Shown here: in pieces, positions 266 through 63,775 of the stretch
Layout of the letters: every line of letters begins with the position of its first letter
How positions within the stretch are numbered: the first letter of the stretch is position 1
From: Bolinopsis microptera
Taxonomy: Eukaryota > Ctenophora > Tentaculata > Lobata > Bolinopsidae
DNA length: 64,000 nt
Direction: 5' to 3'
Assembly: GCF_026151205.1 (NCBI RefSeq)
Contig: NC_087084.1
Location: 2,389,345-2,453,344 of the forward strand
Notes under the pieces: generated by a model
What the model saw: the letters and a program-made list of their open reading frames with translations, nothing else
What the model was told of the DNA's origin: nothing
Databases searched by the model: none
Translations under genes and position numbers: made by a program

Positions 266-1396
266 TAATGTTTTAGTTTAGAGTGAGACTTACTGTTGCA
301 AGTAATTAGTGACGTTTTGCAGTTAACAATTAAAGTTGGACTTACTGTTGCACGTAATAAGTAATGTTTTGCAGTAAACAATTAAAGTTGGACTTACTGT
401 TGCAAGTAATAAGTAATGTTTTGCAGTTAACAATTAAAGTTGGACTTACTGTTGCACGTAATAAGTAATGTTTTGCAGTTAACAATTAAAGTTGGACTTA
501 CTGTTGCAAGTAATAAGTAATGTTTTGCAGTAAACAATTAAAGTTGGACTTATTGTTGCAAGTAATTAGTAATGTTTTGAAGTTAACAATTAAAGTTAAA
601 CTTATTGTTGCAAGTAATAAGTAATGTTTTGCAGTAAACAATTAAAGTTGGACTTATTGTTGCAAGTAATTAGTAATGTTTTGAAGTTAACAATTAAAGT
701 TAAACTTATTGTTGCAAGTAATAAGTAATGTTTTGCAGTGAACAATTAAAGTTGGACTTACTGTTGCACGTAATAAGTAATGTTTTGCAGTTAACAATTA
801 AAGTTGGACTTACTGTTGCACGTAATTAGTAATGTTTTGCAGTTAACAATTAAAGTTGGACTTACTGTTGCAAGTAATTAGTAATGTTTTGCAGTAAACA
901 ATTAAAGTTGGACTTACTGTTGCACGTAATTAGTAATGTTTTGAAGTTAACAATTAAAGTTAAACTTATTGTTGCAAGTAATAAGTAATGTTTTGCAGTA
1001 AACAATTAAAGTTGGACTTACTGTTGCACGTAATAAGTAATGTTTTGCAGTTAACAATTAAAGTTGGACTTACTGTTGCACGTAATAAGTAATGTTTTGC
1101 AGTAAACAATTAAAGTTGGACTTACTGTTGCACGTAATAAGTAATGTTTTGCAGTTAACAATTAAAGTTGGACTTACTGTTGCACGTAATAAGTAATGTT
1201 TTGCAGTTAACAATTAAAGTTGGACTTATTGTTGCACGTAATAAGTAATGTTTTGCAGTAAACAATTAAAGTTGGACTTACTGTTGCACGTAATAAGTAA
1301 TGTTTTGCAGTTAACAATTAAAGTTGGACTTACTGTTGCACGTAATTAGTAATGTTTTGCAGTAAACAATTAAAGTTGGACTTACTGTTGCACGTT
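266..1396 (-). repeat. 52-bp minisatellite (~21 copies) carrying the 5' splice site of PLXDC exon 10
   Basis: The unit period is 52 bp (for example 361 to 413). On the minus strand each unit contains ACGTGCAACA followed by GTAAGTCCAAC; these are the last 10 nt of exon 10 and the start of its intron. The copy touching the exon is the genuine junction at 1386/1385. Units differ by a few substitutions (gcacg/gcaag, cttact/cttatt). Reading on into the intron meets TAA directly after the junction. Confidence 0.95.
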
Positions 1397-2015: not shown

Positions 2016-5000
2016 CTGTAGTTATTGCCGGTCACTTATACTGACAATACTATACACAGTACACTATACACACTCAACACAGTACACTATACCTCTAAAC
2101 ACAGTCCACTATACACAGTACACTATACACAATACACTATACACAATACACTGCAAACGGTACATCAACTTTGTGGTATTCGTGGATACAGGTCACCGTC
2201 ATACCTGTAGTTCAGATGTTATTATACACAGTACACTATACACAGTACACTATACACAGTACACTATACACAGTACACTATACACTGCAAACGGTACATC
2301 AACTTTGTGGTATTCGTGGATATAGGTCACCGTCATACCTGTAGTTCAGATGTTATTATACACAGTACACTATACACAGTACACTATACACAGTACACTA
2401 TATAATATATACACAGTACACTATACACTGCAAACGGTACATAAACGTTGTGGTATTCGTGGATATAGGTCACCGTCATACCTGTAGTTCAGATGTTATT
2501 ATACACAGTACACTATACACAGTACACTATACACAGTACACTATATAATATATACACAGTACACTATACACTGCAAACGGTACATCAACTTTGTGGTATT
2601 CGTGGATATAGGTCACCGTCATACCTGTAGTTCAGATGTTATTATACACAGTACACTATACACAGTACACTATACACAGTACAGTATATATATATACACA
2701 GTACACTATACACTGCAAACGGTACATCAACTTTGTGGTATTCGTGGATATAGGTCACCGTCATACCTGTAGTTCAGATGTTATTATACACAGTACACTA
2801 TACACAGTACACTATACACAGTACACTATATATATACACAGTACACTATACACTGCAAACGGTACATCAACTTTGTGGTATTCGCGGATGAACTATTCCA
2901 GATGTTATTGGCTCAAGAAAAAGGAGTATCAAGAATATTAAACTACTTTCACTAGAACAATGTAATATTTGTTTTAATATTTTTAATTATCGATGATACA
3001 ACTAAACACTTGACTGATATATGGATAATATCCGGTTGGAAGAGACAAGGACAAATGAAACAAGGAAGTTAGGAGTAAGGGCAAATTTTCGGCGTCAACG
3101 CCATCTTCAGGCTCAAATTATTTGTTATATAGTAGTGTTGAAAGTATTAATACTTTCAACACTACTATATAACATATAATATCAGTATTTCAATCATGAG
3201 ACTAATAAACAGCGAACTACTCCGTTATTTGAAACACTTCACTCTTGATACGTTAGTCTTGGTAGAACAATAGAATCACCACCAATATCATTACAAGAAA
3301 TATTGTAGAGAATTGTTAAAGTGTATGTACCATGTTTGGTGTCCTATGCATACACTCCTTGATAGTTATCTTGATCTAGTATCTTTGTTTCACACAATAG
3401 AGCATAAGTTTTGTGGTTTATCCACTGGGCTTAGAGTTTGTGTTTAAGCTACCAAATTTTATTATTTTTATTATTACAAGAAATATTGTAGAGAATTGTT
3501 AAAGTGTATCATGTACCATGTTGATAGGTGAAAATTCTGTTTCTTCCTCCACTAGCGAGCTCAACAAATGAAACAAGCAGTTAATCACACAAAAATATTT
3601 TCGATGGTCTACATCTTCATCAGTTCTCAAATTATTTGTTATATAGTAGTGTTGAAAGTATGTACCATGTTTGGTGTCGACCTCGTAGAATGCTTCAGAA
3701 ATTCCAATCTTAACGTAATGAGAGTCATCATCAATACTGTCTACTGAGAAAGGGACCTGAAAATAGCATTAAGTTGTTTAAATAGTAAGTAAGAAGATTG
3801 ATTACAAACATTCTTTGTCGGCAAATTTAGACTAACTTGATTATTATCAACTGAAAATATTCATAATAATTCTCGGATTAGAAATCTAACCTGAGCACTC
3901 GACTGGAGAATAGCATTAAGTTGTTTAAATTTTAATATAACCTATTTGATTGTTTTAAAAACTATCTAATGCTTTAATGCATACCAAAACTAAAATGAAT
4001 CAACATAATATTATAAAGGACTCAATTTGAACCCTGGACAGCTTGTCAAGTACATCGTTTAATAGAACTCATGAACATGTAGCTAAATTATCTTTTTCAT
4101 TAATTCTTAGGATTCTTCTTACTCAGTTATTTTATAAACAGAAATTATTAGAATAATTGTAATTCCTTTGTAAGTAATGAATGCCTTTTGTATAATACTG
4201 TAAATAGATTCTTATAACGTTTATTGCACTTCGCTATAATATAATAACATTAATTTAATAACATTAATATAATAAGATTAATTTCATTTCAGACATAAAC
4301 GAAACCTCTCTATTACATAAATTATTACATAAATTATAATCTTTTATCGACGTTGTAAGAAGATTGATTAAAAACATTCTTTGTCGGAAAACTTAGACTA
4401 ACTTGATTATTATCAAGTTCTGAAAATATTCACAATAATTCTCGGATTAGAAATCTATAGTTCAAAAATTAATTGTACGTTCCGTCATTACTATTATTAG
4501 CACTTATAAGTGGCATAACAATTAAGCAGTTTTATATAATTCGTGATTTACTTTCTCGTTAAAAAGTAACTCCAACGAGAATAATCAGTTGCAGTCCTAA
4601 TTGTTTAATTGTTTAATTGTTTAACTATTTAATGCTTCAAACGGTTTATATGATAAATCATCAAATAAAATTATTCACGATTAATATTGGCCGAAAATCT
4701 GTCACTTGCAAATAATTTAATCACTCTTTAGTCTTCATAATGCTATTATATAATGCATCGATAATCCACATAAAAATAAAGTTCAAGGAAGGGTTAAAAT
4801 ATTGTTATTAATTACTGAAACAATCAGAGATGACTATTAGCAACTAGTTTACTCAATTAGATAATTTGAATACAAATAATCTACGTATAATGTAATTATC
4901 ATGCATATTAACTTATTAAAAAGGGATTACAATAGCCGTAACTCACCTGTTTGTAAGCAAAAATAATGTCACCGTTGATGTACAATTGTGCTTGGAAACT

Positions 5001-17000: not shown

Positions 17001-20000
17001 TATTTACATCTACCAATCTCAAGGTATTGTATGTTATATAGCAGGGCACTGTATTTACATCTACCAATCTCAAGGTATTGTATGTTATATAGCAGGGCAC
17101 TGTATTTACATCTACCAATCTCAAGGTATTGTATGTTATATAGCAGGGCACTGTATTTACATCTACCAATCTCAAGGTATTGTATGTTATATAGCAGGGC
17201 ACTGTATTTACATCTACCATCTCAAGGTATTGTATGTTATATAGCAGGGCACTGTATTTACATCTACCATCTCAAGGTATTGTATGTTATATAGCAGGGC
17301 ACTGTATTTACATCTACCAATCTCAAGGTATTGTATGTTATATAGCAGGGCACTGTATTTACATCTACCAATCTCAAGGTATTGTATGTTATATAGCAGG
17401 GCACTGTATTTACATCTACCAATCTCAAGGTATTGTATGTTATATAGCAGGGCACTGTATTTACATCTACCATCTCAAGGTATTGTATGTTATATAGCAG
17501 GGCACTGTATTTACATCTACCAATCTCAAGGTATTGTATGTTATATAGCAGGGCACTGTATTTACATCTACCAATCTCAAGGTATTGTATGTCTACTCCC
17601 GCTAATAGTATTGTCTGTGTGCTATTTACTGCTGAGACTCTTACTTTACTCATCTTTACTGGGAGGGAATCATTCTGTACACAGATTGTGATGTGTTGAA
17701 GAATATGGAGTGTTTTAAATATTAAAGCCCACCTAAGCTAGCCTTAACTCAATTAAACTCACTAAACCTCAATTAATCTCACTTAACCTCACCTAAATTT
17801 ACCTAACCTCAACTTTGTCAGCTCTCAGCTTTCTAAAATAGCATCACTCTAGCAGGTCTAGCTATACTCTATTATAGTACTAGTATATATTAGTGTACTA
17901 GTATACTGTATACTGTATAGTGTATAGGTTAACACTGCTCAGCTGCTTCTAACATAATGTTTCCGTGTGCTCCTAGTCAGTGTACCAGTCCCTGATCCAG
18001 TGTTGCCCACGTGCTGCCCACGTGTTGTGCACGTGACTGTTAATGAGGTGGTATGTAGAGCTAATGACAGGTAATGGAGTAATAGGGCCATTAGAGGACA
18101 ACACTGGATAGAGTAGTATATACTATATAATATAGTAGTATAGGTGGTTTCTAGGAGAGTAGGAGAGGGGATACACTGTATAATGGACATTGGACAATGA
18201 ACTGAAGCTACACTCTTCAAGTGTTGTAGTAGCGCTCTCATTTAGCACTATGGAGCACTGTGTAGTGTGTATTTTAGTGAAGCACACTTCCTTCAAATGC
18301 AATCTCTCAATAGCATGGACATAAAGAGAAGAAGAGAACGAGAAGAAGAAGAAGAAGAAGAGGAAAGAGAACGGACAGTGTTTAAAGTGGCAGTTAAATT
18401 ATATAAGATTTATTATTTTTTTATAGAATTACTTTAGAAAATGAAATATAATAAATACCACTTTGTGATCAGTTGAAGAGCGTGTAACAGAGAATGACAT
18501 GTTACACGCTGCTTCTATTAAACAATTGTTTTGCTTGAACAAAACACAGCAGCAGCATTATAGGAAGTTGTAGACAACTCTTACGATTGGTTTACACTTT
18601 TACACACAGTTTGCTCCTTTATAATATAGAATGTTATAATATCTAGTAGTGTTTACAAGTTGTACACCTGGTGGTAGCTGGAACTTGAAAAATAGAAGTT
18701 ACGACTAGTTGCTCTTTATTAACCCAGGTCGCTCTCTTTGAACAACTATTAAAGCTCTGTTCGTATCACAGTGCACATATTATCTAGATTCGATCGAGGG
18801 TTGAATATATAAACAAGTTACTAATACCACGAATCACCATATTACACGCTACTAGATCTTCTCTGTTTAATATTACGGGCTCTCTGGAGAGCTATTTAAC
18901 AATGACGAGTTGTAGTAAAGTAAAACTGTAGCTATGGTAACCGCACAGTTACAGAGCACTAATCGTTTAGACTGGACTACACAGTGTATCATTGTCCCTA
19001 TTCATTGTGAGCACGTCCAGATTCTAGGTGAACTGGTGAAGATAACAGGTAATAAAGTTAACAGGTGTTAAATTACTACATAATGTACTATATAATATAT
19101 ATATTATATATTATATATTTTGATTATAATTCCAAGGCGCAGGTGTCTTCTTATTTTATGACCACCACGTACAAATTGGATGAGAATTAAAGGCTGAATA
19201 GTAACGGTGACCAGGGGCTTTCTAGTACTGTATAATATGATTACAGTGCAGCTCTTGTGGCTTATTGTAGCTGACACGTGAGAGAAAAATTAAATACGAT
19301 CTCAAACTGACTGTTTGGTATGTAAATCAATGTAGTGATAGTTGTTGATGTATATGCAGTGAGAAAACAAAACCACTTCCACATTTTGTACACAAATTTG
19401 AAGAGATTTTGACACCCAAACCTCTTCACTCTTCATGAATGTTGTTGTGAACGGTTGTTAACATTTAAACATCTAACTGAAGGCAACTCTTCTCACCTGA
19501 GATGTGATAAAACACGTGAGAGTCGTTGCTAAGAGAGGGGTTAAACTCTGCCATGAGCGGGGCGATGTACTGCGTAGCTGTGAGCTGGTTGTGGATCAGC
19601 TCGCCCACAAATATGAAACCTGGGAATTGTGGGATGTAAACGTGACATTTTGTGCGATTTTAGGCTTAAAATAGCATACAATAGTTGGAGGTTACGGAAG
19701 GTTAACATTTTAAATATGTCTTTAAAAAAATTTGTACTTATGTCTTCGTCCTTTGTCGTACAATTTCAACTGTTCCACAAAGGACAAAGATTTACGTTAT
19801 AAGTACCGCAAGTATGATCTAGAATACAACCTAAGAGGGTATGGAATAGTATCATATGTTAAGGGTGAATTAATAACGGATTGAATTAATGAATTCTCAC
19901 CTCCAGTGGTGGGTGTGATGGAAGTTAGGGGAATACCGTAAAATGGAAAAGAAAATGGAAGTCGTATATTCTGAAATATTAATTATTGAAGTTAGGGGGA

Positions 20001-24348: not shown

Positions 24349-24486
24349 AGCAGCAGTGAGCAGCAGTGAGCAGCAGTGATAAGCAGTGATCAGCAGTGAG
24401 CAGCAGTGAGCAGCAGTGAGCAGCAGTTAGTAGCAGTGAGAAGCAGTGAGCAGCAGTGAGCAGCAGTGAGCAGCAGTGAGCAGCAG
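24349..24486. repeat. 10-bp tandem repeat cagcagtgag
   Basis: About 14 copies with minor changes (aagcagtgat, tagcagtgag). Confidence 0.95.
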
Positions 24487-42075: not shown

Positions 42076-42087
42076 CTGTTAGCCTCT

Positions 42088-46600: not shown

Positions 46601-49600
46601 AATGGAGACTCTTACCTTGTTGGTCCAAGGATCACGGCCGGTGAATGGAGACTCTTACCTTGTTGGTCCAGGGATCACGGCCGGTGAATGGAGACTCTTA
46701 CCTTGTTGGTCCAGGGATCACGGCCGGTGAATGGAAACTCTTACCTTGTTGGTCCAGGGATCACGGCCGGTGAATGGAGACTCTTACCTTGTTGGTCCAG
46801 GGATCACGGCCGGTGAATGAAGACTCTTACCTTGTTGGTCCAGGGATCACGGCCGGTGAATGGAGACTCTTACCTTGTTGGTTCAGGGATCACGGCCGGT
46901 GAATGGAGACTCTTACCTTGTTGGTCCAGGGATCACGGCCGGTGAATGAAGACTCTTACCTTGTTGGTCCAGGGATCACGGCCGGTGAGTGGAAACTCTT
47001 ACCTTGTTGGTCCAGGGATCACGGCCGGTGAATGGAGACTCTTACCTTGTTGGTTCAGGGATCACGGCCGGTGAATGGAGACTCTTACCTTGTTGGTCCA
47101 GGGATCACGGCCGGTGAATGAAGACTCTTACCTTGTTGGTCCAGGGATCACGGCCGGTGAATGGAGACTCTTACCTTGTTGGTCCAGGGATCACGGCCGG
47201 TGAATGGATACTCTTACCTTGTTGGTCCAGGTATCACGGCCGGTGAATGAAGACTCTTACCTTGTTGGTCCAGGGATCACGGCCGGTGAATGGAGACTCT
47301 TACCTTGTTGGTCCAGGGATCACGGCCGGTGAATGGAGACTCTTACCTTGTTGGTCCAGGGATCACGGCCGGTGAATGGAGACTCTTACCTTGTTGGTCC
47401 AGGGATCACGGCCGGTGAATGAAGACTCTTACCTTGTTGGTCCAGGGATCACGGCCGGTGAATGAAGACTCTTACCTTGTTGGTCCAGGGATCACGGCCG
47501 GTGAATGGAGACTCTTACCTTGTTGGTCCAGGGATCACGGCCGGTGAATGGAAACTCTTACCTTGTTGGTCCAGGGATCACGGCCGGTGAATGGAGACTC
47601 TTACCTTGTTGGTCCAGGGATCACGGCCGGTGAATGGAGACTCTTTGAACCACGAGACGGTGACTGATTCTTCACCTGTCTTCAGTACGGTTTCCTCTCC
47701 AGCGTTACTGAGGGATGCAAATGCTTTGATTTATTTTGTTAAAACAACCGACCCAACAACACACAGTTAACACGATTCGGTATGTTTATTTATAGGATAC
47801 ATAAGGAGTATAATTAAGAATAGGAAAGCCGAAATTGGTTTACATCATAACAGCGGAGACTGAGTTCTGAGCCTCTAGCACTGGAACTGGAATGTCCAAA
47901 TATGCTGGGTCGTATCCGTCAGCTTCACATACCCAAGTAGGGTCAGCACAGTTCAGATCCAATACTACCTCCTTGCCTTTTACCTGCAACATCTTGGTTA
48001 TTCTCTTTGTAACTCATGATGTTGTTTCTCTTATATTTCAGGAATATTCAGAAATATTCAGAAATATTCAGAAATATTCAGAAATATCCAGAAATATTCA
48101 AAAATATTCAAAAATATTCCATGCAAAGTACCAAACTTATTTAATAGATGTGGGGAGGTATATACCTTCAACACGTTATAGCAATTAGCCAATCAGCATC
48201 CACAATTGACCAACCAAACCCAACAAGAATTGCGCCCGTTGTTTCGTTTTGGCGGACGCTAGATTTCCATTTCACATTTACTATACATTTAAGTATAAGC
48301 TCCAATCAGCTCACTTCAATCTTCATGATAATAATATTGATAAATTATGCATCAAATACGTAGGGACTACGGGTGGAAGATGAATAATTGATATTCCAAC
48401 AGCATCTTGTTCTCTGCATTGTGCTGATTCCGGGAAGCATTTTGTTTACGCTCTCATCATTCTGTAGGATGAGATATCGTTCATTTAAAATTGGGTAATT
48501 ATAGGCCTGTCAAGGATTTCAGCCTAATTAAGAGCTGATCAATTGCAGCTAGTTGTGCCATATAAAGGATAACTGAGGTCACGTGACATTCAGTCCTATC
48601 ACGTGACCGCTAATCCTATCACGTGACCTTGATTCGTAAAGCCTCGGGCACGTGATCACATTCGTAACGTGTCGTATGCCGACTAGGAGATTTTGTGACG
48701 TCACCAGAGCTGAAGCTACTTGATCAGGCCTTATATGGAATAATATCGTGTATCGGGTGTAATTGGACCCAATTAGAGCAGCTGAGCGCTCAAATATAGC
48801 ATCATCTGGTACCACCTTCTGCTCTTCTGAAACCCAGCAGACAGCTGGCCCAGAGAATCGAAATTAGAAGGATTTTTTATTGATGGAAATCGAAGCGGAA
48901 ACCTTGTAACCCTATGTTTTCGATGACGCCGAACAAGATTAAACAGGTTATAATTGTCCTACTCTCGTGTAAATTGCTCTAAAACGTGATTGAAATTGTA
49001 ATGATGCTATCAATTGTAATACAGTTTTTACATTAAGCTGAGCGGCGTAACGGCTGGCATTCCTGGGCCGCACTCATCCCAGATTGTCATTCCGCCGCAG
49101 CTTCAATTTATCTGGATATTACAGCCTGGGGTCCCCAGGTAACGACTGGAACCGCTATATCTGCCTAATCTCAGCTATTGTAAATAACGAAGCCTGTGAT
49201 CCGCACATCAGGTATTGACCACATTGAACGGGCTTGAATCGAACAAGCCGTGTTATTAATATTAAAGATATTAATACCAAAAATCGTATTACTAGATTAC
49301 CTTCTTGTCATTTGTGCGAAGTGCGTACTCTTTATACTGCAGTTTGAAGTGCATTACAGAGTTAATGTTATGTGTATTATACAGTTACAGTTATGTAACT
49401 GTTGCACACAGTAAAACTTACTGCGATCGCGCTGATAAGAAGTGAACTGATAAGAGTCGAGTAAAATTGCAACGTAACTAAAATCAATGTAACACCGCTA
49501 TATGAATAGTGATCATTTCTCAAATAGTTTTCTCAATATTGCAATGAAGTTGTCCGATTTTATTGATGGAACGTGTGACAGCCTTCCATGTCACAGTCCT

Positions 49601-52600
49601 CCGTCAAACAAGGACATCCTTCGTTTTCTTTTGAGCCACAAGGAAAACCATGCGACTCATGTCGATTTAATGCTGGCCGAGGTTTCAAGTTTGATATTAA
49701 GTCATTACAGTACCATCGAAATGTACAGGCAAACGGACTTCTTTCAGCCTTGCAATATTGTCAAGTGAGTGCTAGTGTTTTTTAGGTATTTACCCTACAG
49801 CACAGGTTGTTCACGATACATCAGTCCGGTTTCAAACATATATTTTCTGCTGGGGGAAAATAAGAGAAATATAGCCGATCGATCTTTCATAAATTAATCT
49901 ACAGATGTTTGAAACCAAACCAATGACCAATGTTTCATGAACAATCTGTAGTTGTACTGTATGCATATTTGAGTATGTACTCATTATTTGATGGTTCTTC
50001 TGCCAATCATAGCCCTAAAATATGTTGTTTTGAAAAGTTAGCAAATACATGCACTTGGTTATTGGGAAATGATGTAAATTCTGTCACATTATATGGAATT
50101 TGAAATTCTGGGTGAATTTCCGAAATCATTTATATCTGATTTTGGTTTGGAAGGCGGGAAAACTCTATATAAGGACGATCAACGGATACAGTTGATTCAA
50201 GTATAGGGCAGTTGATGTAAACATCGTCACAAAATGATACGACATCGTAAATAGGTTACATTTTGCGGGGAAAATCTATATAAGGACGATACACGGATAC
50301 AGTTTATTCAAGTATAGGGCAGTTGTTGTAAACATAGTCACAAAATGATACGACATCGTAAATAGGTTACATTTTGCGGGAAAACTCTATAAGTCTATAT
50401 ATAAGGACGATACACGGATACAGTTGATTCAAGTATAGGGCAGTTGATGTAAACATCGTCACAAAATGATACGACATCGTAAAGAAGTTAAATTTTGCGG
50501 GAAAACTCTATATAGGGACGATACACGGATACAGTTGATTCAAGTATAGGGCAGTTGATATAAACATCGTCACAAAATGACATCGTAAGGTTAAATTTGG
50601 AAAAAATGATTATAGAATGAAATAGTCTGTGATTAACATATTACATACATTATAAAATGGGCAGGGGTTTTTATATTTCCTGTATCTCTGTATTAATCAT
50701 TTCGGACTGTAATTGGGACTGTTCACGTGAAAGAAATTGTATCTAAATTTTACAATGACGTACTCGTATGTGACGAAATTTACATTTCTTGACCCTATTT
50801 TGAAGAACCATACCTCGGTTAGAATTCAATTTTCTTCCAGGAATTATTGGTTGGTTATTGTTCAGCAAATTAGAACTCAAGTTTAACAATGCTGAGTTTA
50901 ATTTTACTAAGTTACTGAAATGTGACGAAATTTACTTTTCCTGCCCCAACAGTATAATTTCAATGTGATGAAAAATTGGCATGGGTTCCTAAATTTCCTG
51001 TGTAAATCCATTCTAAATATAATAAGGACTATTGATATGAAGGAAAATCTATCTAAATTTTAAAATGACGTATGTGACGAAATTTACATTTCTTGCCCTT
51101 ATTTTGAAGAACCATACCTCGGTTAGAATTCAATTTTCTTCCAGGAATTATTGGTTGGTTATTGTTTAGCAAATTAGAACTCAAGTTTAACAATGCTGAG
51201 TTTAATTTTACTAAGTTACTGAAATGTGACGAAATTTACTTTTCCTGCCCCAACAGTATAATATCAATGTGATGAAAAATTGGCATGGGTTTCTACATTT
51301 CTTGTATAAATCCATTCCGACTATAATAAGGACTATTGGTATGAAAGAAAATCTATCTAAATTTTAAAATTACGTATGTGACGAAATTTACATTTCTTGC
51401 CCCTATTTTAAAGAACCATACCTCAGTTAAAATTCAATTTTCTTCCAGAAATTATTGGTTGGTTATTGTTCAGCAAATTAGAGCTCAAGTTTAACAATGC
51501 TGAGTTTAATTTTACTACGTTACTGAAATGTGACGAAATTTACTTTTCCTGGCCTGCCCCAACAGTATGATATCAATGTGATGAAAAATTGGCATGGGTT
51601 TCTATATTTCCTGTGTAAATCCATTCTAACTATAATAAGGACTGTTGATACGAAAGAAAATCTATCTAACTAATTCAAGGGCTGATGTGACGAAATTTAC
51701 ATTCCTTGCCCCCTATTTTGAAGAATCATACCTCGAATAGGATATAATTTTACTTTATCACCATACCTATGTCGATAAACTAGTTATTTTGCCAACAAAT
51801 AGCAAATAAAGTTATCATATTTTTTTTGTGACGAAATTTACAAATTTTTACCATGTTCAGGTGTTGAAATTTTGCCAATGTTAACATATCACTGCCATAT
51901 AATAATTTATATGACCGGTGTGTGGTTGAAATATTGTTAATTGATCCATAGTACGTAATATATGGTGTTTAAGTTGGTATACTAATATTTACTCAATTTC
52001 ACACATGTTGAGATATCGTACAAATGTATGTGACAAAGTTTACCCATTTCTGCCTTCCGTATTTGTATTTGCCTATAACAATGAAATATGTGAATAATTC
52101 CAAACACATTCAGCTCACAAAATAATGCTAGACTATTCGGCATTTCTTGTCAGGATGTCATAAACATCCCTCATATAAATTTCTTAAATGTGTGACAGAG
52201 TTTACATGGTGCTACCATTTAACGAAAAAAGTTGCTTAATATGTAGATAATAGTCATATGCAACTATCCTATAAATTTGAAATTCGAAAATTTGGTCAAA
52301 CACGGCAACAAGGGGTCCATGTAAACTCTGTCACGTTTTTATAGTGTGACAAAGTTTACAACTCACTGCCGGCCGCATTGAAGCGATATCTTATCGTCTG
52401 ATAAAGATATCGTTATGCAACAAAGTTTATCTAGAGGATGAAACGATTATCCTAACCATTGAGGGTTTATATAGTTTTATAGTGTGACACATTTTACATC
52501 ATCGTGCCATTTAGTAGGGTCACTAATATTTACCAATATCCTCAAACTTCAATGAACGTGTCCATATATAAATAGATTTTAATTCCAAGTGTTCGTAGAA

Positions 52601-55600
52601 TAATTGAAAACGTAGCACTGTAAATGCGCCAGCTATTCAACTTATGATAACTTAATCAAATTGATGACATTCAAGTGCATTTTGAAAAAATTTACCCGAT
52701 ACTATGATATTTTTTATAGTAATAACACGACGTTCAATTCAAGCCCATTCAATGACTGATGTGCGGATCACAGGCTTCGTTATTGACAATAACTGAGATT
52801 AGGCAGATATAGTGGTTCCAGTCGTTACCTGGGGACCCCAGGCTGTAATATTCAGAAAAATTGAAGCTGCGGCGGAATGACAATCTGGGATGAGTGCGGC
52901 CCAGGAATGCCAGCCGTTACGCCGCTCAGCTTAATGTAAAAACTGTATTACAATTGATAGCATCATTACAATTTCAATCACGTTTTAGAGCAATTTACAC
53001 GAGAGTAGGACAATTATAACCTGTTTAATCTTGTTCGGCGTCATCGAAAACATAGGGTTACAAGGTTTCCGCTTCGATTTCCATCAATAAAAAATCCTTC
53101 TAATTTCGATTCTCTGGGCCAGCTGTCTGCTGGGTTTCAGAAGGTGGTACCAGATGCTGCTATAATTGAGCGCTCAGCTGCTCTAATTGGGTCCAATTAC
53201 ACCCGATACACGATATTATTCCATATAAGGCCTGATCAAGTAGCTTCAGCTCTGGTGACGTCACAAAATCTCCTAGTCGGCATACGACACGTTACGAATG
53301 TGATCACGTGCCCGAGGCTTTACGAATCAAGGTCACGTGATAGGATTAGCGGTCACGTGATAGGACTGAATGTCACGTGACCTCAGTTATCCCTTATATG
53401 GCACAACTAGCTGCAATTGATTAGGCTGAAATCCTTGACAGGCCTATAATTACCCAATTTTAAATGAACGATATCTCATCCTACAGAATGATGAGTGCGT
53501 AAACAAAATGCTTCCCGGAATCAGCACAATGCAGGGAACAAGATGCTGTTGGAATATCAATTATTCATCTTCCACCCGTAGTCCCTACAAATACGGGAAA
53601 CACTTGAAATTCAGTTCAATTGCCGTAGAACTTAACTTGTATCTGTAATTCAAGAAATTATCAGCAAAGGTAAACTATACTCGTGTACACATCAATACAC
53701 TACGCGTGCCACGTACAAATTGGGCGTATTACCTAATAGTAATATTAAACATTACATGCATCATATACATAAAACACAGTCGCGCCGCGCATTCATAGAT
53801 CACAGGCTATCTATACATCACATCTCCGCAAGCAATCCTCGCGCGCGCGCGACTTTTTCGTTGCTTGGTAACATACGGAACGACACCATATTCATACCCG
53901 CCTAACGCGATCTCCAAAATCCATGTTTTTCTGCAAAAACCTCCATTCGTAACCTTTCACTATTGCCTTTTTTCAAAAGGGTGAAAAGGAAAAAATCACT
54001 GTCGCATGCCAAAAAAAGTGTGGACCTACCGAATATCCACCGTTGGAAAACTTAGCATCTAAGATTTTATTTGTCACATCGTCCAAGCAGTTGACTCTAG
54101 CGGAGCCGGGTGTAGGTGACCCAGTTATGAAGATTCTAGCAGTCCCTCCAAATACAGGAGTGGACTCTGGGAATGTTGCCTCAGTTGGTGTCGTGTAGGC
54201 TACGCTAGGTGTAGCGGGTGATGTTTCTGAAAACAAAAAAATGTAGATGAGACTTTTTAATATCATTTCAAACAGATGTCATATATTGTGTGAGTTTGCG
54301 GCCTAGGTAGATTGTCACACAAGGACGAACGCACCTGGGACAACGCAAGCATCAGAGCTAGTTGAGCCAGCAGCAGACTGTCCACCATCAGGACAAGGTG
54401 TACAGGAGCCGGCACCTGACGCACTGTACGTGTTGTCCGGGCATTCAGCACAACCATTCTCAGTCATGAAGCTTCCAGCCTGGCATGGAGCTGAAAAGCG
54501 AAACGGTTTGTTTATTAGATACATAAATAATAATTAAGAATTGGAGAAAGAATGTAAAAATAATTTCTTTTTTAATCAAAATGTTTTTTTAAAAGAAAGA
54601 AAAGAGTGCTTTTTGAAGTCTCCGGATGAATCACTGTTCAATCATTAAATAAGTTGCATTGAACGACAAAAGTTCTTCTTATAATTTCTTGGAGGTTAAT
54701 TAACTTTTACCATAATCACAGTCATCTTCTGATGTAGATCCAGCAGCAGATAGTTTACCATCAGGACAGCTAGTACAAGAAGAAGCTCCATCACCACTGA
54801 AAGAGTTCTCTCCACATTGTTGACATCCACTGTCAGTCATGAAGTCTCCAGCCGAGCATGGTTCTAAAGTATAATTTTGTTAAATATTTATTTTTTTAAA
54901 AAGACAACCAAATGTTTTCTTTACTGATGATAGTATTTCAGCAAATCAGTTACTCTGGACATTATGCATATTCTACGAAATCTTCTAAAAAAAAGTAAAC
55001 GTCAAGACCAACATTGGTAATTTAAATGCTTAGTGCAAAAAAATGGGCAAGACTATCATTATTACCATAATAACAGTCATCAACTGATGAAGATCCAGCG
55101 GAAGAAACTCTGCCTTCGGGGCAGCTATCACAAGAGGAAGCTCCATCACCACTGAAAGTGTTCTCTCCACATTGTTGACATCCACTGGCGGTCATGTAGT
55201 CTCCAGCCGAGCATGGTGCTGAAAGGAAACCGTTATACTCAAACAGACATCACCCATAGGCTCGGTAACAGAGTTCTCAAAATTTGTCATATAAAAAACT
55301 AGAAGAACAGGGATTTAAGGCAAGATAATTTACCATAATCACAGTCATCTTCTGATGTTGATCCAGCAGCAGATAGTTTACCATCAGCACAACTAGTACA
55401 AGAAGAAGCTCCATCACCACTGTAACTGTTCTCTCCACATTGCTGACATCCACTGTCAGTCATGTAATCTCCAGCCGAGCATGGAGCTGCAGAAAGTGTC
55501 ATATTTTACGATATGGTAGGTTTTGTGATAATACTCTAATCGAAATTACGATAAAGTTTTTGTTAAAAATTGAATTGAAACTTCATCAATTTATAAATTC

Positions 55601-58600
55601 AATAGTCTAAATTGATATTCCTATAATTTTACCATATTTGCAGTCATCTAGTGATGTAGATCCAGCAGCCGAAACCTTGTCATCAGCACAACTAGTACAA
55701 GAAGAAGCTCCATCACCACTGTAACTGTTCTCTCCACATTGCTGACATCCACTGTCAGTCATGTAGTTTCCAGCCGAGCAAGGGGCTGCATGATATACAA
55801 ACATTACAGCTGAGATCTTCAAACGGGAGGGCCAAAACTCAAGAAAGAGATTGGAATTGAACGACATTTTACCATGTAGGTCACAAATAATTATATTAGT
55901 AGTTTTCTGCGAAGTAAAATTAGACGATTGGAAAGTATAATATCAAATAAATGGCTCTACAAATTACAAAACGATATTTAATATCTGTAAAACATGTTGC
56001 TTTGTCATTATCTTCTTGTATTCTAAAGTTCTAATCTTCGGGATCGAATTATGCTAAAAAAGGAGATCGAATGAATTATTGAATTTGAAATGTTCCATTT
56101 AATTTGTCCTGTTATCAGATTCACGTCGTTGGTAAGGTGTAAAGATTTAATTTTAGGCTTTCATGTGCTAACGAATTTTGCAAATCCCTATGATTATGTT
56201 CTTTGTGCTTTGAATTTTTAAACTCTGCATCTCTTTTGGAATGAATTTCAAGCTATTATCAGCTCTTACTGTCACTTGTAGCACATCAATTTTTGCAAAT
56301 CTGGTATAATTTGGGCTTCACGATTGCTTAAAAGTCCCAATTTGCTCTGTTCATAAACTGTCTTGCAGTGCACTGCCTCTGGCCGATTGTCTTTTGTTTT
56401 TGCGCTTACGACACTTTTATACAGATTTGTTCCATATCAAACTGCGAGCAGAACTGTCAATACCACTAAACACCATTGAGAAATACACGGGGCTCTTCCA
56501 CGGCTTGCTGGTGATTGAATAATGTTTGGAGTTGTAACGATTTTGTGGCTATGACTAATAAAATTGTGTAATGCAATTACAGATTAAACTGTATCACGGA
56601 GTTTCTAATGTTTAGATCTAAACATCGTATCTATGACGTATATATGACGTAGCTATGACGTCGTATCTATACGACTTGTTCTTCTTGACAATTGTCATGT
56701 TCCGACCGAATACTACTTTGCACAAAAAAGGTAAAGGATGAGGAAGCGATAAAAATTCTCAAAAACTAATTTTTGGCCTTGGATGATGAATGCATATTTT
56801 ATTGATTAAAAGGTGAATTCAACGAGTTTGCAAACGTAATGTCACAACTTTGTACTCACCATAATCACAGTCATCTTCTGATGTTGATCCAGCAGCAGAT
56901 AGTTTACCATCAGCACAACTAGTACAAGAAGAAGCTCCATCACCACTGAAAGAGTTCTCTCCACATTGCTGACATCCACTGGCAGTCATGTAGTCTCCAG
57001 CCGAGCATGGTTCTAAAGTATAATTTTGTTAAATATTTCTTTTGTTAGCAAGACATCAAAATATTTTATTTATTGATGAAAGTATTTTCAGTAAAAAATA
57101 TGGGCAAGACTATCGTGATTACCATAATAACAGTCATCAACTGATGAAGATCCAGCGGAAGAAACTTTGCCTTCGGGGCAGCTATCACAAGAGGAAGCTC
57201 CATCACCACTGAAACTGTTCTCTCCACATTGCTGACATCCACTGACAGTCATGTAGTCTCCAGCCGAGCATGGAGCTGAAAATGTGTCCATTAACATTAC
57301 GATTAAAAAAGACTATATATGAATTGTTTATGATTTTTTGGGAATCAATTTTTTAATCTATACTGGTGTTTGATCTTTATATAATCAAAAACTTAATAGA
57401 TTTATTTTTTTCGGTAGGATGTACTTACGTTATAACTATTCATATTATAAACATAGGCATTACCGTAATAACAGTCATCAACTGACGAAGATCCAGCGGA
57501 AGAAATTTTGCCATCGGGGCAGCTATCGCAAGAGGAAGCTCCATCACCACTGAAAGAGTTCTCACCACATTGTTGACATCCACTGGCAGTCATGTAGTCT
57601 CCAGCCGAGCATGGAGCTGACAATTGTTTCATTTACTGATTATGATTTTTTAAAAACCATTTTTTGCATTAATTATGTGAATCATTGTTTGTCTGCATTG
57701 ATTCTTTCTGCAATCGCAAAGATAACAAGCTTTTTCGGTACAATGAATTTTATCCAAAGTACTAAAATCTTAAAATTATGAACATAAATATTAAGTATTA
57801 CCGTAATAACAATCATCTGCTGATGAAGATCCAGCTGCTGATAGTTTACTATCAGGACAACCACTACAAGAGGAAGCTCCATCACCACTGAAAGTGTTCT
57901 CTCCGCATTGCTGACATCCACTGACAGTCATGTAGTTTCCAGCCGAGCATGGAGCTGAAAATTATGAATTATCATTAGCGTAAAAAGCGTTATCAATATA
58001 TTTGTTCCATTTATAAGCGTTGAGGCCGTGTAATATCGTATTTCATCACATACAAGGAATATACATAATACAATAAATACAAGGAACGTACATAGTACAG
58101 TAATTAATACTAGGAACATAACGAATACACGTAATAAGGTAATACAACAAAAACACGTAGTACAACGAATACACGTAGTACAACTAGATAACAAGGAATA
58201 CAAAGTAAATAGAATTAGGTAGCACTAAAACACACCGCCTGAAAACAGATTGAGTTAAAGAATGGGAGGGTTGGACTTACTTAACACTAAATAAAAACAT
58301 AAATTATTATTCAAGTTAATCTTGAGAAGTTATTATTATATATTATATATATTATATTATTTTCAATTCATTTTCATGGCATTTAGGTTTCGAAATAGAT
58401 CTTTGTACTTATCGCAGCCATTAAAATTAGGTAAGACATACCATATTCACAGTCATCTGCTGATGTAGATCCAGCAGCTGCAACTTTACCCTCAGGACAA
58501 CTAGTACAAGAAGAAGCTCCATCACCACTAAAAGAGTTCTCTCCACATTGCTGACACCCACTGCCAGTCATGTATTCTCCAGCCGAGCAAGGTGCTGAAC

Positions 58601-61600
58601 ATTTTTTCATTTACCTTATGATTTTAGGAAAACTATGTTTGGATTATTTAATTTATGTAAAATCATTGTTTTTCTTCATTGACTATTTCCACAATCCAAA
58701 AGGTAATACGCTTTTTTGGTACAATGTATTTTATCCGAAGTACTAAAATTGTGAACATAAATATTAAATATTACCGTAATAACAATCATCTGCTGATGAA
58801 GATCCAGCTGCTGATAGTTTACCACGTGGACAACCACTACAAGAGGAAGCTCCATCACCACTGAAATAGTTCTCTCCACATTGCTGACATCCACTGTCAG
58901 TCATGTAGTCTCCAGCCGAGCATGGTTCTGAACATTGCATGTGTAAGAATATTAGAATGAAGTACTAAATCAGGACAATGCCAGATAACGGATTATGGTC
59001 AAAATAAGGACCGATGAAATGAATCTTTGGTAACAGTGATGCAGATAAGATTGTATTACACTTTACAATTTTTTTACCATATTCGCAGTCATCACTCAAC
59101 GTAGATCCGGCAGCGGAAATTTTGCCCTCAGGACAATTATTACAAGAAGAAGCTCCAGGGCCACTGAAAGTGTTTTCTCCACATTGCTGACATCCACTGT
59201 CAGTCATGAAGTTTCCAGCCGAGCAAGGACCTGATAATAGAAATAGGTTTGAGTCAAAGACATCATTAAATTATCCCCATACGTTCCCATGGGACCTACA
59301 TCGTATTGGTCAAAGGATTTAGAAGATTAATACGACAAGATGCTCCAATATAATGCTCCAATACAATCTAAAAACCTCAAATTAATATCGCGATAAGCTG
59401 ATCATTCCCCTATTGGTTAAACCGTCTGAAGCTCAGATGGATACTTGATAGGTACGAATTGTGACCAGTAATTAATAATTAATTATTAATCATGACTAAT
59501 GACAGGTTATAAACGAGCGATACCCAGACTACTCAAGAACAAGATTGGTGTACCCAGATAGCCAGAGTTTCTAGTTTAAACGGGATGATGATATAAGGTA
59601 CAATTTCATACCGGTCTAGTTCGATTCGAGAATACAACTAGGAAATGTTATTAAAAAAATGTGCTATGTTTTGCGTGATAAATCAAAGTTATGATCCCTT
59701 CTTTGCGTGATAAATCAAAGTTATGATCCCTTCTTTGCCCACCATATCGACAAAATGTGCTATGTTTTGCGTGATAAATCAAAGTTATGATCCCTTATTT
59801 GCCCACCATATCGACAATCATAAACTGATGTAGATCCTGGAGCGGAAATTTTCCCAACGGGACACTCAGTACATCGACTAGCTCCATCACCACTGTAAGT
59901 ATTCGCTCTGCATGGGTGACATCCACGACTGTTCATAAAGCTTCCAGCCAGACACGGTTCTGTGAATTGTTAAAACTGAATTTTAGATGATTTTTTCTGA
60001 CAAATGGCTTTCTGAGATAAGAAATGGTTTTAATATTTTACATAGAAGGGTTATAAAAAACACTTACTCCATTCACAGTCGTTGTTAGATGTTGATCCAG
60101 CGTTAGATATTTTGCCTGATGGGCAGTCGGTACACGATGAAGCCCCGGCACCACTTTTGGAGAATAAGAATATCAAAAAAATTGATTACCTAATAATTTC
60201 ATCATAATCAAGATAAAAAACAGTTCCACTCAGTAAGTTTATAACCACACAGTTAGTGTTAACAAAAGAATAACAAAACTTATCAAATAAAGAAATCATC
60301 ATTATCAAACGAATAAAAGTAAAAATAACAGCTACAATAAGGTACAATACCTGAAAGTATTCACTGGACATTGCTGACAGCCTAGTACTCCATTATTGAA
60401 TTGTCCGGCAGCACACTCAAGTGGTGCCTCTGGTTCAGTGTCTCCTGAATCTGCGGAGATATCATTTATTCTAAACTGTTGCACCACGCGTAGAATATCC
60501 ATATTACTATTATTTGTATAATTGTACTCTGTTACATAAGAACATGTACGTTTTTTACGTCTTTAAATGTCGTCTTATTATAGTTTGCCAAGATTTATTG
60601 AAGGCCACATTTAAAAAATCTATAACTAATTAAAGTATGTGAATTATGTAAAGTATATGAATTCTACCTACCATCTGCCTCGCAGTTGTTGACTGATATG
60701 GATCCTGGTGGGGAGGTGGAACCGCCCGGGCAACCAACACAACTCTGTACTCCGACCATCGCAAACCTAGAAAACAAACGATACATTACACAATACACAC
60801 AGGCAGTAGGTGAATCGGGGTTATACTATAATATATATATAGACAAACAAATCATCTCCAACGACTACGCTACTCAATCTGGTCAAGTGCTTGAATCTTG
60901 ATGGAAATAATATTACCAAAATGAAACCTTAATAATTTCAAGAATCAATGCTTAAATAAAGTGCTCGAATAGTTCTCAATAGTCTCAGTTCAAACCTCAT
61001 GTTATAGGTGTTGGCTGGACATGATTGACAGCCCGAATCAGTCATATAATGTCCTTGCATACATGGACCTGGGGAAATCAAGTTTTAGTTGAACTTGAAT
61101 TGAGCCGAATTTGTCTTGCCTCATATCATTAATGCTGTTTTCATGAAATCATGTATAAGTATTTGCACTAAAACATAAACCTTACCGTAAGTACAGCCAG
61201 TAAGTTTCTTCACTGGAACCTAAAACTTACCGTAAGTACAGTCAGATAAAGATGTAGAAGCGTACGCTGAGATCTTCCCAGATGGACAGCGGGTACACTG
61301 TGTTGCTCCAGCTTCACTGTAGTAGTTCTTCGAGCAACTCTTACATCCTTCACTTGACATATACTTGCCAGCCTCGCATGGTTCTACGAGAAGTGTGATT
61401 ATCATTGCCTATACTTTGATACAAAGAAATTGTCGGTTTAAAAGGATATCATCAGAATCATGTTCGACAATTATCAGAAGGTAAATGTTACTTTTCTAAT
61501 AAGAGCCGATCTTCTGGCAGAAAGAGTAAAGCTTTTTCCGCATTTAACGGCTGTTTTATCGTAGAAAAAGCGTACAGCAGTCGCCAGTAAAAGCTTAGTA

Positions 61601-63775
61601 AATCTAAAGCGCGAAATGATTTGAAGTATCATTGCAAGTTTGTATCTTTGTACCTTTTTCACAGTCGCTGGAACCAGCCTCTGATACTTTTCCACCTGGG
61701 CATGCTGAGCACTCCCTTACCACACCTCCCTGCATGTAAGGTATTATTAACGGTCAACTTTTCCAACATGTTATACATTACTACAAATCTTCTTATTAAG
61801 ATTACATCGATCGTTCAGAGGTGAATAAAAAGAAAGGGCAGACTACAGGGTGAGTTGAAAATAGTGTGTGGAATGTAAAGATCGATAATTTTTTTATGAA
61901 GGAGCAAATTTATGGCAGACTTTTGATAGTTCTGGAACTATTAAAATTAAACATTATTCTCGTATATTACTAACCGTACTGTACGTATTTTCAGGACACC
62001 TGGAGCAACTCGTAGCTCCTTGAGCTGCGAAATGGCCTGCTGGACAGGTCACTGCTCCATCTAAGGTAGTTATAATGTAAGGTCATGTCGATCATATTTA
62101 TAAATGAAAGGTATGTCATGTGTTTTACAATAAATAACATTACATGCCTTCTGTTCATAGTTGGTCCGTACGTACGTAAAAACAGCAGGGTACTCAAGGT
62201 ACGACAAATTTGATTTAAGGTACGTAAAGCTTTAAAATTGTTTCACACGCACCAATTTTTTATTTGTCTACGGCTGAAGACAGTGAATCTGAGAATGATA
62301 TGTCTGCATTGATTCCGCTTAATGTCTTTAACTTTATCTTGATGATAAATTGTACAATTTAAACTTTTTAAAGGTGTTTAAATCGTGTGAAAATAGCGTC
62401 GAAAGTTGCGAAAGTACTTTAGGGTACTCTCGGGGTACTCTTGAGTACGGACTAACTATGCTTCTGTTAAGATATTAAGATGATAATATTAACAGTCTAA
62501 ATAAGACCTTGAAAAGACTCACTTCTTCAGACTCAGGATAACAAGGTTACTACTTAGTAACTTAGGAACTAGTTAATTATACCTAGTAACTCAGTAACTC
62601 ACCTTCTTCAGACTCAGGATAACTAGGTTACTACTTAGTAACTTAGTAACTAGTTAATTACCTAGTAACTTAGTAACTCACCTTCTTCAGACTCAGGATA
62701 ACATTCATCTAGAGAAGCGGCACCGAGCCCCGCAGTGGTTTCACCTTCAGGACATGACGTACAGAACATGGCCCGACTTTCTGAGTAAGCCCCTTTAGCG
62801 CACTTAGCGCATACTTCATCTCCAGCTGCGTTTCCAGAATAGTAAGTCCCCGGCGGGCAATCTAACAGGGATAGCACTTTATCAGATTATGTTAAACAGA
62901 ATTATAGTGATTCGATTTGATCGGGTACTCCCAGTTTCAAATTCACTTGGAGATATTTTGAGATTTATTAGCTACCGCAAAGACACAAATAAAGTGTAAT
63001 AGTGATCAGTTATAGCGTAACGAAGGGCCCTGCCGACCCCGCGGCTGTGGGGGGGGGGGGGGGGGGGCGGCTCCATCTTAGGGGGGGGGGGGGGGGGGGG
63101 GGGCGCGGCCAAATCGTCGGACAATTTGAAAAAAACTTGACTAAGGTACTAGCAAAACTGCGCGTTTTGCTCTAGAAACGCACTTTTTTAGAGATTTTAC
63201 CGGCGTAAAATCTTTAAAAAATTTGTTTCAATTGGGGCGCCCAAAGGGGAGGGGGTGCCAACAGAGAAACGCTTTTTCAGCGGAAGAGGGGGGGGGGGGG
63301 GGGGGGTGCGGGGCCCGGGGGGCAACAGGCAACGTTACACCACTGATACTCTGATAGTGATCGAGGAGGATTAATTACTAATTATCAAAAACAGCTGGTA
63401 AATAATAATTGCGTCTTACCCGGATCACAAGACATTTGATCATCACTCGTTACCCAGCCATCAGTACAGTCATAACATATGTGATCGCCGCTAAAGGAAT
63501 CTGGAACTCGGAATATTGATTCAATATTATAATATGTTGTTGAATAATTCATTATAAACACAATTCTTTGTACTCTTTTGTTATTGTAGTTTACAAAATT
63601 CTGAAAATAACATAAACGAAGTCCTGAAGGATATGATCATTTGATAGAGATTCAAAGCGATCGATTGTAATTCCGTTAGACTTGAGATCTGAATGATTCG
63701 AATCTTCAAACTTAAATAAAATTGTATATTTCTTACCCACAAAAACAGCTTGATGCTTCGGGCAATCTGTCCAAG
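42088..63775 (-). CDS. Large modular secreted-type protein: GCC2/GCC3 repeats, vWD and C8-like domains (3' 35 exons)
   Basis: Thirty-five exons join without a stop for 1,447 codons before TGA at 42,090-42,088; every GT-AG phase matches. The 5' end lies beyond 64,000. Order: cysteine-rich modules, a long run of GCC2/GCC3 (ephrin-receptor-like) modules of about 51 residues, a Thr/Pro linker, vWD and a C8-like end. GCC2/GCC3 modules fold around paired cysteines, and vWD plus C8 is the multimer-forming unit of mucin-like and zonadhesin-like proteins, so a secreted or matrix role is inferred. No transmembrane segment is present in this part. Exons 1-3 are 63775-63737, 63500-63420 and 62861-62682; the others are given under the domain blocks. 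Introns hold exon-edge-derived arrays and a 5.2-kb transposon. I know no named orthologue. Confidence 0.92.
42213..42362. repeat. 30-bp minisatellite, 5 copies, in the last intron of the modular gene
   Basis: The unit is attttgctctcagtaatgtt plus gtttccctac. On the minus strand it begins about 10 nt after the exon 34 donor; it does not include exon sequence. Confidence 0.9.
42660..43157 (-). repeat. 83-bp array (6 copies) abutting the donor of exon 33
   Basis: The period is 83 (42,750 to 42,833). The copy nearest the exon diverges from the others at 43,157, two bases inside the intron if the upstream donor is used. On the minus strand each unit contains AACTATATGG before GTAATC, a possible donor, so the unit may carry a repeated splice site. 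Confidence 0.92.
43370..43518. mobile_element. 149-bp hAT-type MITE with 8-bp target duplication
   Basis: The ends CAGGGACAAAAGGATTTCGC and its inverse complement are perfect over about 20 bp. The flanks atgcatga at 43362-43369 and 43519-43526 are identical. The interior holds further gcgaaatt palindromes. Confidence 0.9.
43899..45678 (-). CDS. Modular gene exons 27-31: vWD domain
   Basis: Exons: 45678-45522, 45013-44870, 44583-44497, 44380-44243, 43985-43899. The domain opens with CSVFGDPHILTFDG and continues GEHYTFHGECPYVLAMDC, GVTCLENVDI, then VEWDGLSSLRIIVDKGARTC and GLCSNNDGN. These are the vWD hallmarks (GDPHxxTFDG near the start, CGLC near the end). The usual CGLCGNxxG is CGLCSNND here. 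Confidence 0.93.
45738..45832. repeat. 9-bp tandem repeat (ataccatgt)
   Basis: About ten units, some diverged (atatcatgt, tttaccatg), in the intron between exons 26 and 27. Confidence 0.9.
45876..47647 (-). repeat. 43-bp minisatellite (~41 copies) made of the 3' end of exon 26 and its 5' splice site
   Basis: Minus-strand unit: GTAAGAGTCTCCATTCACCG, GCCGTGATCCCTGGACC, AACAAG. Of its 43 bases, about 40 are the last coding bases of exon 26 and the remainder is the start of the donor. The unit at 47,647-47,605 is the exon end itself. Nearly all units keep AACAAG before GTAAGAG. Forty-three is not a multiple of three, and translation past the first donor meets TGA after eight codons, so only the exon-proximal site gives the full protein. 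Confidence 0.97.
47605..54226 (-). CDS. Modular gene exons 24-26: linker region before vWD
   Basis: Exon 24 (54226-54030) begins TSPATPSVAYTTPTEATFPE, a Thr/Pro-rich linker, and goes on to ARIFITGSPTPGSARVNC. Exon 25 (47983-47844) encodes VVLDLNCADPTWVCEADGYD. Exon 26 (47707-47605) ends ESPFTGRDPWTNK and is spliced at GTAAGAG. Exons 24 and 25 are separated by 6 kb that holds the 5.2-kb transposon. The last 39 nt of exon 26 are the seed of the 43-bp array. Confidence 0.88.
48040..48120. repeat. 10-bp tandem repeat (aatattcaga)
   Basis: About eight units of gaaatattca near the 3' end of the large intron; low complexity. Confidence 0.85.
49502..49768 (+). CDS. Unrecognised 88-codon open frame inside the 5.2-kb transposon
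   Basis: It begins MNSDHFSNSFLNIAMKLSDF and contains DILRFLLSHKENHATHVDLM; the last codons overlap a donor-like CAA then GTGAGT at 49,763. It may be a first exon of a lost element protein or chance. No domain recognised. Confidence 0.2.
   Translation: MNSDHFSNSFLNIAMKLSDFIDGTCDSLPCHSPPSNKDILRFLLSHKENHATHVDLMLAEVSSLILSHYSTIEMYRQTDFFQPCNIVK
50155..50585. repeat. ~111-121-bp tandem repeat, 4 copies
   Basis: Units contain aaggacgatacacggataca and gtaaacatcgtcacaaaatg, the latter starting at 50,217, 50,328, 50,449 and 50,560. It carries the inverse complement of the word found in the 152-bp array. Confidence 0.9.
50769..52497 (+). repeat. 152-bp periodic array with conserved word TGTGACGAAATTTAC
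   Basis: The word starts at 50769, 50921, 51073, 51225, 51377 and 51529: five intervals of exactly 152. It continues at 51686, 51827, 52029, 52191, 52345 and 52483 with looser spacing and changes such as tgtgacaaagtttac. In the regular part two diverged half-units alternate, giving a 304-bp dimer. In the irregular part little but the word remains alike. Confidence 0.88.
54335..59959 (-). CDS. Modular gene exons 11-23: thirteen tandem single-exon GCC2/GCC3 modules
   Basis: Exons: 59959-59807, 59230-59078, 58927-58775, 58594-58442, 57954-57802, 57616-57464, 57275-57123, 57012-56860, 55785-55633, 55486-55334, 55218-55066, 54863-54711 (all 153 nt) and 54490-54335 (156 nt). All are phase 1-1, so modules can be added or lost without changing frame. 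The consensus is PCSAGDYMTDSGCQQCGENS, then FSGDGASSC, CPxGKxSAAGSTS and DDC. The middle eleven are nearly identical; the first and last are the most divergent. Flanking introns show block duplications (exons 21-22 resemble 17-18; exons 15-16 resemble 13-14). Confidence 0.93.
59660..59814 (-). repeat. Short tandem duplication carrying the donor of modular-gene exon 11
   Basis: The block ttgcgtgataaatcaaagtt atgatcccttctttgc is present three times. Two copies extend through cccaccatatcgaca, that is TGTCGATATG before GTGGGC on the minus strand, the last 10 nt of exon 11 and its donor. Confidence 0.88.
60068..63775 (-). CDS. Modular gene exons 1-10: N-terminal cysteine-rich and split GCC2/GCC3 modules
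   Basis: Exons: 63775-63737, 63500-63420, 62861-62682, 62060-61975, 61729-61654, 61383-61231, 61068-60996, 60766-60672, 60444-60351, 60153-60068. Exon 3 encodes CPPGTYYSGNAAGDEVCAKC and CTSCPEGETTAGLGAASLDEC. Exon 6 is a whole module (EPCEAGKYMSSEGCKSC and onward). Three other modules are each split in two at the same site after NTY/NTF: exons 4/5 in phase 0, exons 7/8 and 9/10 in phase 2. Module sequences here are divergent, unlike the near-identical ones downstream. Confidence 0.87.
61181..61244 (-). repeat. Duplicated donor of modular-gene exon 6
   Basis: cttaccgtaagtacag at 61,226 recurs at 61,181 (45 bp apart). On the minus strand both read CTGTACTTACG before GTAAG. Confidence 0.85.
62519..62706 (-). 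repeat. ~80-bp array (3 copies) carrying the donor of modular-gene exon 3
   Basis: Exon 3 ends GTTATCCTGAGTCTGAAGAA then G before GTGAGTTAC. This 21-nt exon end with its donor recurs 79 and 159 nt further into the intron; the third copy has lost one base at the junction but keeps GTGAGT. The spacer is rich in ttagtaac words. Confidence 0.92.
63007..63353. mobile_element. hAT-type MITE, second copy, opposite orientation, 8-bp target duplication
   Basis: The flanks atagtgat at 62999-63006 and 63354-63361 are identical. Inner sequence (gcgtaacgaagg, actgcgcgttttgctctaga, ggcaacaggcaacgtta) is complementary to the copy at 36,161-36,465. It has long poly-G runs. It lies in the intron between exons 2 and 3 of the modular gene. 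Confidence 0.82.

Follow-up and report, generated by a model that had tools for sequence, protein, structure and literature searches.

Two genes of the ctenophore Bolinopsis microptera carry intronic repeat units that contain the edge of a neighbouring exon together with its splice site. Copies of this kind lie near all nine junctions at which an earlier note on this DNA had claimed them, including exon 33 of the modular gene, which it had listed as possible; seven of the nine are donors and two are acceptors. We consider it probable that they are mirages, that is, minisatellites across exon-intron boundaries, which arose by tandem duplication of the ordinary kind, in a genome rich in repeats, and were tolerated as the intact exon and its proximal splice site remained.

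Exon-edge copies at nine junctions

The window (the whole 64,000-nt stretch analysed, C13:2389345-2453344) lies within a 264.65-Mb assembly of 232 contigs and contains both genes (Table 1). Thirteen of exons 3–34 of the modular gene are 153 nt long. The other gene, which appears by similarity to be of the PLXDC type, had no match in a Pfam search, and the one PDB match, to Plexin-C1, was weak (E 0.46); an Rfam search of the window found no match. Exons are numbered as in the earlier note. Predicted junctions were placed from the reading frame, phase and splice consensus, and in the modular gene also by its repeated exon type, giving 84 exon-intron junctions (42 donors and 42 acceptors) across both genes, all 84 with search strings that occur once in the window. 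A junction was scored as copied when the 24-mer centred on it recurred with at least 21/24 identical positions no more than 1 kb away. Four matches in the modular gene (donors of exons 13 and 15; acceptors of exons 15 and 16) were left out as paralogous exon-exon matches.

Table 1 Genes and exon-edge repeats in the window.
Feature	Position	Strand	Content and junction
Modular gene, exons 3-35	42088..62861	(-)	Ephrin_rec_like (GCC2/GCC3) modules, then VWD domain, then stop
PLXDC-type gene, nine exons (pA-pI)	1386..20875	(-)	single open frame spans all nine
Modular exon 3, ~80-nt array	62517..62703	(-)	last ~23 nt + donor GTGAGT; last exon base 62682
Modular exon 6, diverged two-copy duplication, offset 45 nt	61160..61250, ends approximate	(-)	last ~16 nt + donor; last exon base 61231, copy 61186
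Modular exon 11, duplication, offset 64 nt	59670..59820	(-)	last ~13 nt + donor GTGGGC; last exon base 59807, copy 59743
Modular exon 26, 43-nt array, TRF 41 copies	45876..47645	(-)	last ~41 nt + donor GTAAGA; last exon base 47605
Modular exon 33, 83-nt array, 6 copies	42655..43157	(-)	last ~23 nt + donor; last exon base 43130
PLXDC exon 4, 67-nt two-copy duplication	19921..20052	(-)	acceptor + first ~50 nt; first exon base 19970
PLXDC exon 8, dispersed copy	3331..3666	(-)	last ~15 nt + donor; last exon base 3666, copy at 3331
PLXDC exon 9, 143-nt array, five copies	2095..2889	(-)	acceptor + first 52 nt; first exon base 2015
PLXDC exon 10, 52-nt array, TRF 21 copies	287..1395	(-)	last ~12 nt + donor GTAAGT; last exon base 1386

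The 24-mer rule picked out the donors of modular exons 3, 6, 11, 26 and 33 and of PLXDC exons 8 and 10, together with the acceptor of PLXDC exon 4. This rule misses the PLXDC exon-9 acceptor owing to divergence on the intron side, where only 10 nt are alike among the copies; five copies of the acceptor with 52 nt of exon nevertheless lie upstream, all of them with AG. The description of these repeats as tandem holds clearly for six of the nine cases, where the layout is head to tail (modular exons 3, 11, 26 and 33; PLXDC exons 4 and 10). It does not hold for PLXDC exon 8, whose dispersed copy lies 335 nt downstream of the donor, and is weakened by the diverged pair at modular exon 6 and by the exon-9 array, which begins 189 nt from the real acceptor. 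Unit sizes range from 43 to 143 nt, the dispersed exon-8 copy apart.

Extra copies number 39 at exon 26, 18 at PLXDC exon 10 and five each at exon 33 and PLXDC exon 9, with one or two at each of the remaining junctions. In every donor case it is the real donor that lies furthest 5' among the copies. GT is kept in 15 of the 18 decoys detected in the PLXDC exon-10 array and in all five decoys of exon 33, while the third copy at exon 3 appears by eye to have lost one G at the donor. The exon-33 junction is the least certain of the set, since its donor matches the consensus poorly (-1.6 half-bits, against a window median of 9.8).

Extra copies could also result from collapsed or stuttered long reads. 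PMC10232365 describes a wtdbg assembly of PacBio reads with gap filling, so that copy numbers may be off. The cases occupy nine separate loci with different periods, however, their copies differ by point changes, and all 12 genome matches to the exon-26 unit fall inside the same array. We therefore regard an assembly artefact as very unlikely.

Relation to the mirages of amphioxus

The earlier note knew of no described class that fits these repeats. Such a class exists: in amphioxus, minisatellites across exon-intron boundaries are named mirages in Adh3 and are reported also in globin, troponin C and PGBD5 genes, with units of 10–160 bp and without effect on regular splicing (PMC3087553; PMC3902484). 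Amphioxus mirages are also marked by polymorphism in length, somatic variation included. The ctenophore repeats share several features with that class. Units of tens to ~160 bp contain a single exon edge together with the adjoining splice site, 5' and 3' boundaries are both affected (here at seven donors and two acceptors), many copies keep their AG or GT, and units are alike within a cluster. They differ in belonging to another phylum, in reaching up to ~40 copies and in being known from the sequence of one assembly.

The original paper on mirages is reportedly that of Canestro in 2002. We found the name only for amphioxus genes in the open literature, most subscription journals lying outside the search, and the present host is outside the cephalochordate range so reported. 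A query with the Antp homeodomain returned nothing above 55% identity among the 50 candidates scored, a result that speaks against amphioxus and against any other animal with Hox genes; a COX1 search gave no match. The ctenophore repeats are thus probably a new phylum for an already described class, and mirages beyond amphioxus would make the structure probably no cephalochordate oddity. For the ctenophore Hormiphora, tandem repeats are given as 13% of the genome (PMC8527503), which is consistent with frequent background duplication.

Two other systems bear a resemblance. Human variable internal tandem repeats at exon-intron boundaries in segmental duplications likewise place minisatellite units at boundaries, and are linked there to novel introns or alternative transcripts (PMC2812944), whereas the present repeats are known from DNA alone. 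In the second, intron gain by tandem duplication (Rogers 1989, cited in PMC3087553; see also PMC4974935), a short duplicated segment also contains AG/GT, and the arrays would be newborn introns derived from duplicated exon sequence bearing that motif. AG/GT does frame the exon-3 and exon-26 units. However, intron gain puts a new intron inside one exon, whereas here old introns between distinct exons carry extra junction copies and the protein frame is continuous; in addition, the AGs of the decoys score only -5.6 and -1.5 half-bits as acceptors, compared with a window acceptor median of 13.4. We consider this origin highly improbable. Recursive splicing via the AG/GT unit borders was rejected for the same poor acceptor scores.

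Decoy donors and the reading frame

Of the 66 decoy donors in the window, 61 equal or exceed their own real donor in score, and in the two long arrays conservation at the donor columns is not below that of the remaining positions (0.996 versus 0.977; 0.976 versus 0.963). The decoys have therefore not been disabled, and donor strength alone cannot pick the site. This pattern fits the earlier proposal that redundant splice sites may be tolerated. In all seven donor cases of the window, the frame read on from the exon runs into a stop codon before the next decoy, so the reading frame needs the exon-proximal donor, and we infer from the sequence that this is the site used in splicing. Arrays with up to ~40 donors as strong as the single real donor next to them amount to a natural experiment on how the spliceosome chooses among identical donors, and genome-wide counts of donors versus acceptors would put a number on that choice.

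The exon-26 array also offers a view of how such a unit may begin. All 39 decoys detected there have GT, and 38 of them share the same bases at -1 to +6. The copy lying furthest 3' ends in AAG/GTCTGC with a donor score of 15.4 half-bits, compared with 21.5 for the GTAAGA of the true donor and of 38 of the 39 decoys, and exon 26 itself reads AAGAGTC from 41 nt before its own end. On the simplest reading of this one case, duplication of the 41-nt exon tail plus GT would have joined GT to AAGAG and so turned a weaker donor into a strong one.

Duplicated junctions in the window against null models

The earlier note argued that random duplication would rarely straddle junctions, exons being a small share of the sequence. 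This is the wrong null; what counts is how frequently positions fall in a founding unit. We therefore used a founder null, which gives how likely a position within an intron is to have a downstream copy but no upstream one, the directions being swapped for acceptors. Raw coverage gives the opposite answer, with local repeats making up 27% of the window's intron interior compared with 7/42 donors duplicated (17%), and was set aside; the founder null is the fairer of the two because long arrays inflate intron length.

Under the founder null, seven of the 42 window donors were duplicated where 1.49 were expected (P = 0.0009), or 1.09 when the null was restricted to within 300 nt (P = 0.0001). The acceptors showed one duplication in 42 against 1.59 expected, the exon-9 acceptor being uncounted under the 24-mer rule. 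In the window, donors are thus in excess and acceptors are not. A collapsed null, which weights copies by 1/n and gives 5.1%, left the donors in excess (7 versus 2.13, P = 0.006), with all junctions together at 8 versus 4.27 (P = 0.069). Window donors were above expectation in every unit-based null tried, in the same sample in which the pattern was first noticed.

The counts varied with the matching rule. With 20-mers (18/20) the window gave eight donors and three acceptors and the replicate set described below two donors and one acceptor; with 30-mers (26/30) the window gave four donors (P = 0.056) and one acceptor and the replicate two and none. Restricting copies to within 300 nt left six donors and one acceptor in the window, and two and none in the replicate.

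A donor excess of this kind is what would be expected if some property of donors, whether breaks linked to U1 or R-loops or simply their sequence, promoted local duplication so that exon ends seeded arrays more often than other DNA does. The exon-26 case is compatible with this, since the duplication may itself have made the better donor. The raw duplication profile, however, is flat around donors: among window donors it is 7/40 at position 0 and 4–7/40 from +60 to +120, and among dynein donors 2/108 at 0 and 3/108 at +90 and +120, the intron side including later copies of the same array in both profiles.

Junctions in 13 other genes

As a replicate we took 136 donors and 145 acceptors from 11 dynein loci (nine genes, adjacent loci being counted as one gene) and four myosin loci. 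The spliced-alignment queries were L042, a dynein heavy chain that seems to lack introns, and L039, a myosin with few of them, and junctions were dropped if the flank score was below 8, the donor score below 8 or the acceptor score below 6. The gene of the dynein query (L042, C3:8952001-8962000) and another at C1:6100405-6103008 contain open frames 3357 and 3703 codons long and may be retrogenes, unlike the dynein genes elsewhere in the genome, which are split into many exons.

Thirty PF07699 loci (L009-L038) had been meant as a same-class set and stand outside the counts. Spliced alignment of these loci with the window modules was too weak, and its lone acceptor match (L015) was dropped. A rough heuristic count on the 19 loci left after removal of two repeated-peptide and nine long-frame loci gave 0/13 donors and 0/13 acceptors. 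With this set left out, the genes of the replicate are conserved and intracellular, unlike those of the window.

The earlier note had proposed comparing the overlap of repeats with junctions across the genome. In these 13 genes the overlap was not above the founder null, with 2/136 donors against 2.26 expected and 0/145 acceptors against 2.83, and an enrichment of the size found in window donors was rejected (P = 0.0017, interior null). A control drawn from no more than 300 nt beside each junction gave 2 donors against 0.68 expected, compatible both with no excess (P = 0.15) and with a window-sized effect (P = 0.19); for acceptors it gave 0 against 1.53. Both replicate donor cases lie in one gene, the dynein heavy chain L051; one of them is an array of 62-nt units with a 55-nt exon-side match and 11 decoys, all with GT. 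The same anatomy as in the window thus occurs in an unrelated gene. One decoy there (L051:8439) lies 72 nt on with no stop and would be usable without breaking the frame.

Pooling the window and the replicate gave nine donors against 3.75 expected (P = 0.015), or against 1.77 with the local control (P = 0.0001). The verdict on donors varies with the control and with inclusion of the discovery sample. The earlier suggestion of a mutational process focused on exon-intron junctions is not demonstrated, the donor excess being confined to the discovery window and an acceptor excess appearing nowhere. We regard such a process as unlikely, the pooled donor counts and the donor-acceptor contrast given below speaking for it and the replicate against it. 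No genome-wide process of this sort is shown by these counts, which remain compatible with a modest donor bias.

Donors, acceptors and the origin of the arrays

Over all sets, 9/178 donors were duplicated compared with 1/187 acceptors (Fisher P = 0.009, or 0.03 when the exon-9 acceptor is included); in the replicate alone the contrast was 2/136 versus 0/145 (P = 0.23). Pooled acceptors stood at 1 against 4.42 expected (P = 0.065), or 3.55 with the local control (P = 0.13). These counts make a donor-over-acceptor bias suggestive.

Such a bias could arise from equal mutational input followed by unequal selection, in which acceptor copies, lying upstream and met first by the splicing machinery, would be purged, while donor copies lie downstream of the real donor, which would be transcribed first and win. 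Acceptors fall under expectation over all sets taken together, and the upstream acceptor copy at PLXDC exon 4, if used, would shift the frame by 67 nt. Against this stand the small numbers, with the contrast outside the discovery window as weak as given above, and the five upstream acceptor copies kept with their AG at PLXDC exon 9. We hold this explanation to be possible, although on balance not the probable one.

A further reading combines these elements: donor junctions would be the true seeds of minisatellite birth, a duplication would both copy a donor and be able to strengthen it, donor mirages would accumulate since the first-transcribed donor would win, and acceptor mirages would be purged. 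We find this combination unlikely. If it were true, mirages would serve throughout the animals as a natural archive of how splice sites are chosen.

Ordinary tandem duplication, the origin that we favour, would act as follows. Short tandem duplications would arise throughout a repeat-rich genome without targeting, and now and then the first duplicated segment would happen to straddle an exon-intron junction. At a donor, the exon and its splice site would stay intact at the 5' end of the duplication; at an acceptor, the acceptor and exon would stay intact at its 3' end. Every extra copy would then fall in the intron and, with an intact exon and splice site kept, the change would cost little. 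The array could thereafter expand and contract like any minisatellite. The intact copy would be transcribed first at donors and last at acceptors; if the first-transcribed donor wins, donor mirages would carry less risk than those at acceptors; the bias is consistent with this and does not prove it. Because the anatomy of the duplication could account for the structure, no special process need be invoked.

Other repeats and frames in the window

Further tandem arrays are present in the window. A TCAGAG hexamer array at 29213-29861 is perfect over 108 copies. At 8895-12021 a 42-nt array of ~74 copies, with periods of 59, 101, 126 and 143 besides, is open on both strands for more than 800 codons. 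Two near-perfect arrays ~3.6 kb apart (13008-13350 and 16962-17592) have a 51-nt unit in common and may be the two ends of a single mobile element.

The intron between modular exons 24 and 25 contains, at 48360-53588, three nested inverted-repeat arms of 395, 287 and 172 nt that are 98–99% complementary and surround ~3.5 kb. They resemble an inserted element with long inverted ends, and by eye the arms bear TCACGTGA-type motifs. Upstream of the PLXDC exons, a sulfotransferase frame at 21868-22752 (-) matches Pfam Sulfotransfer_1 on both halves, with an in-frame stop near the middle and no intron between the halves.
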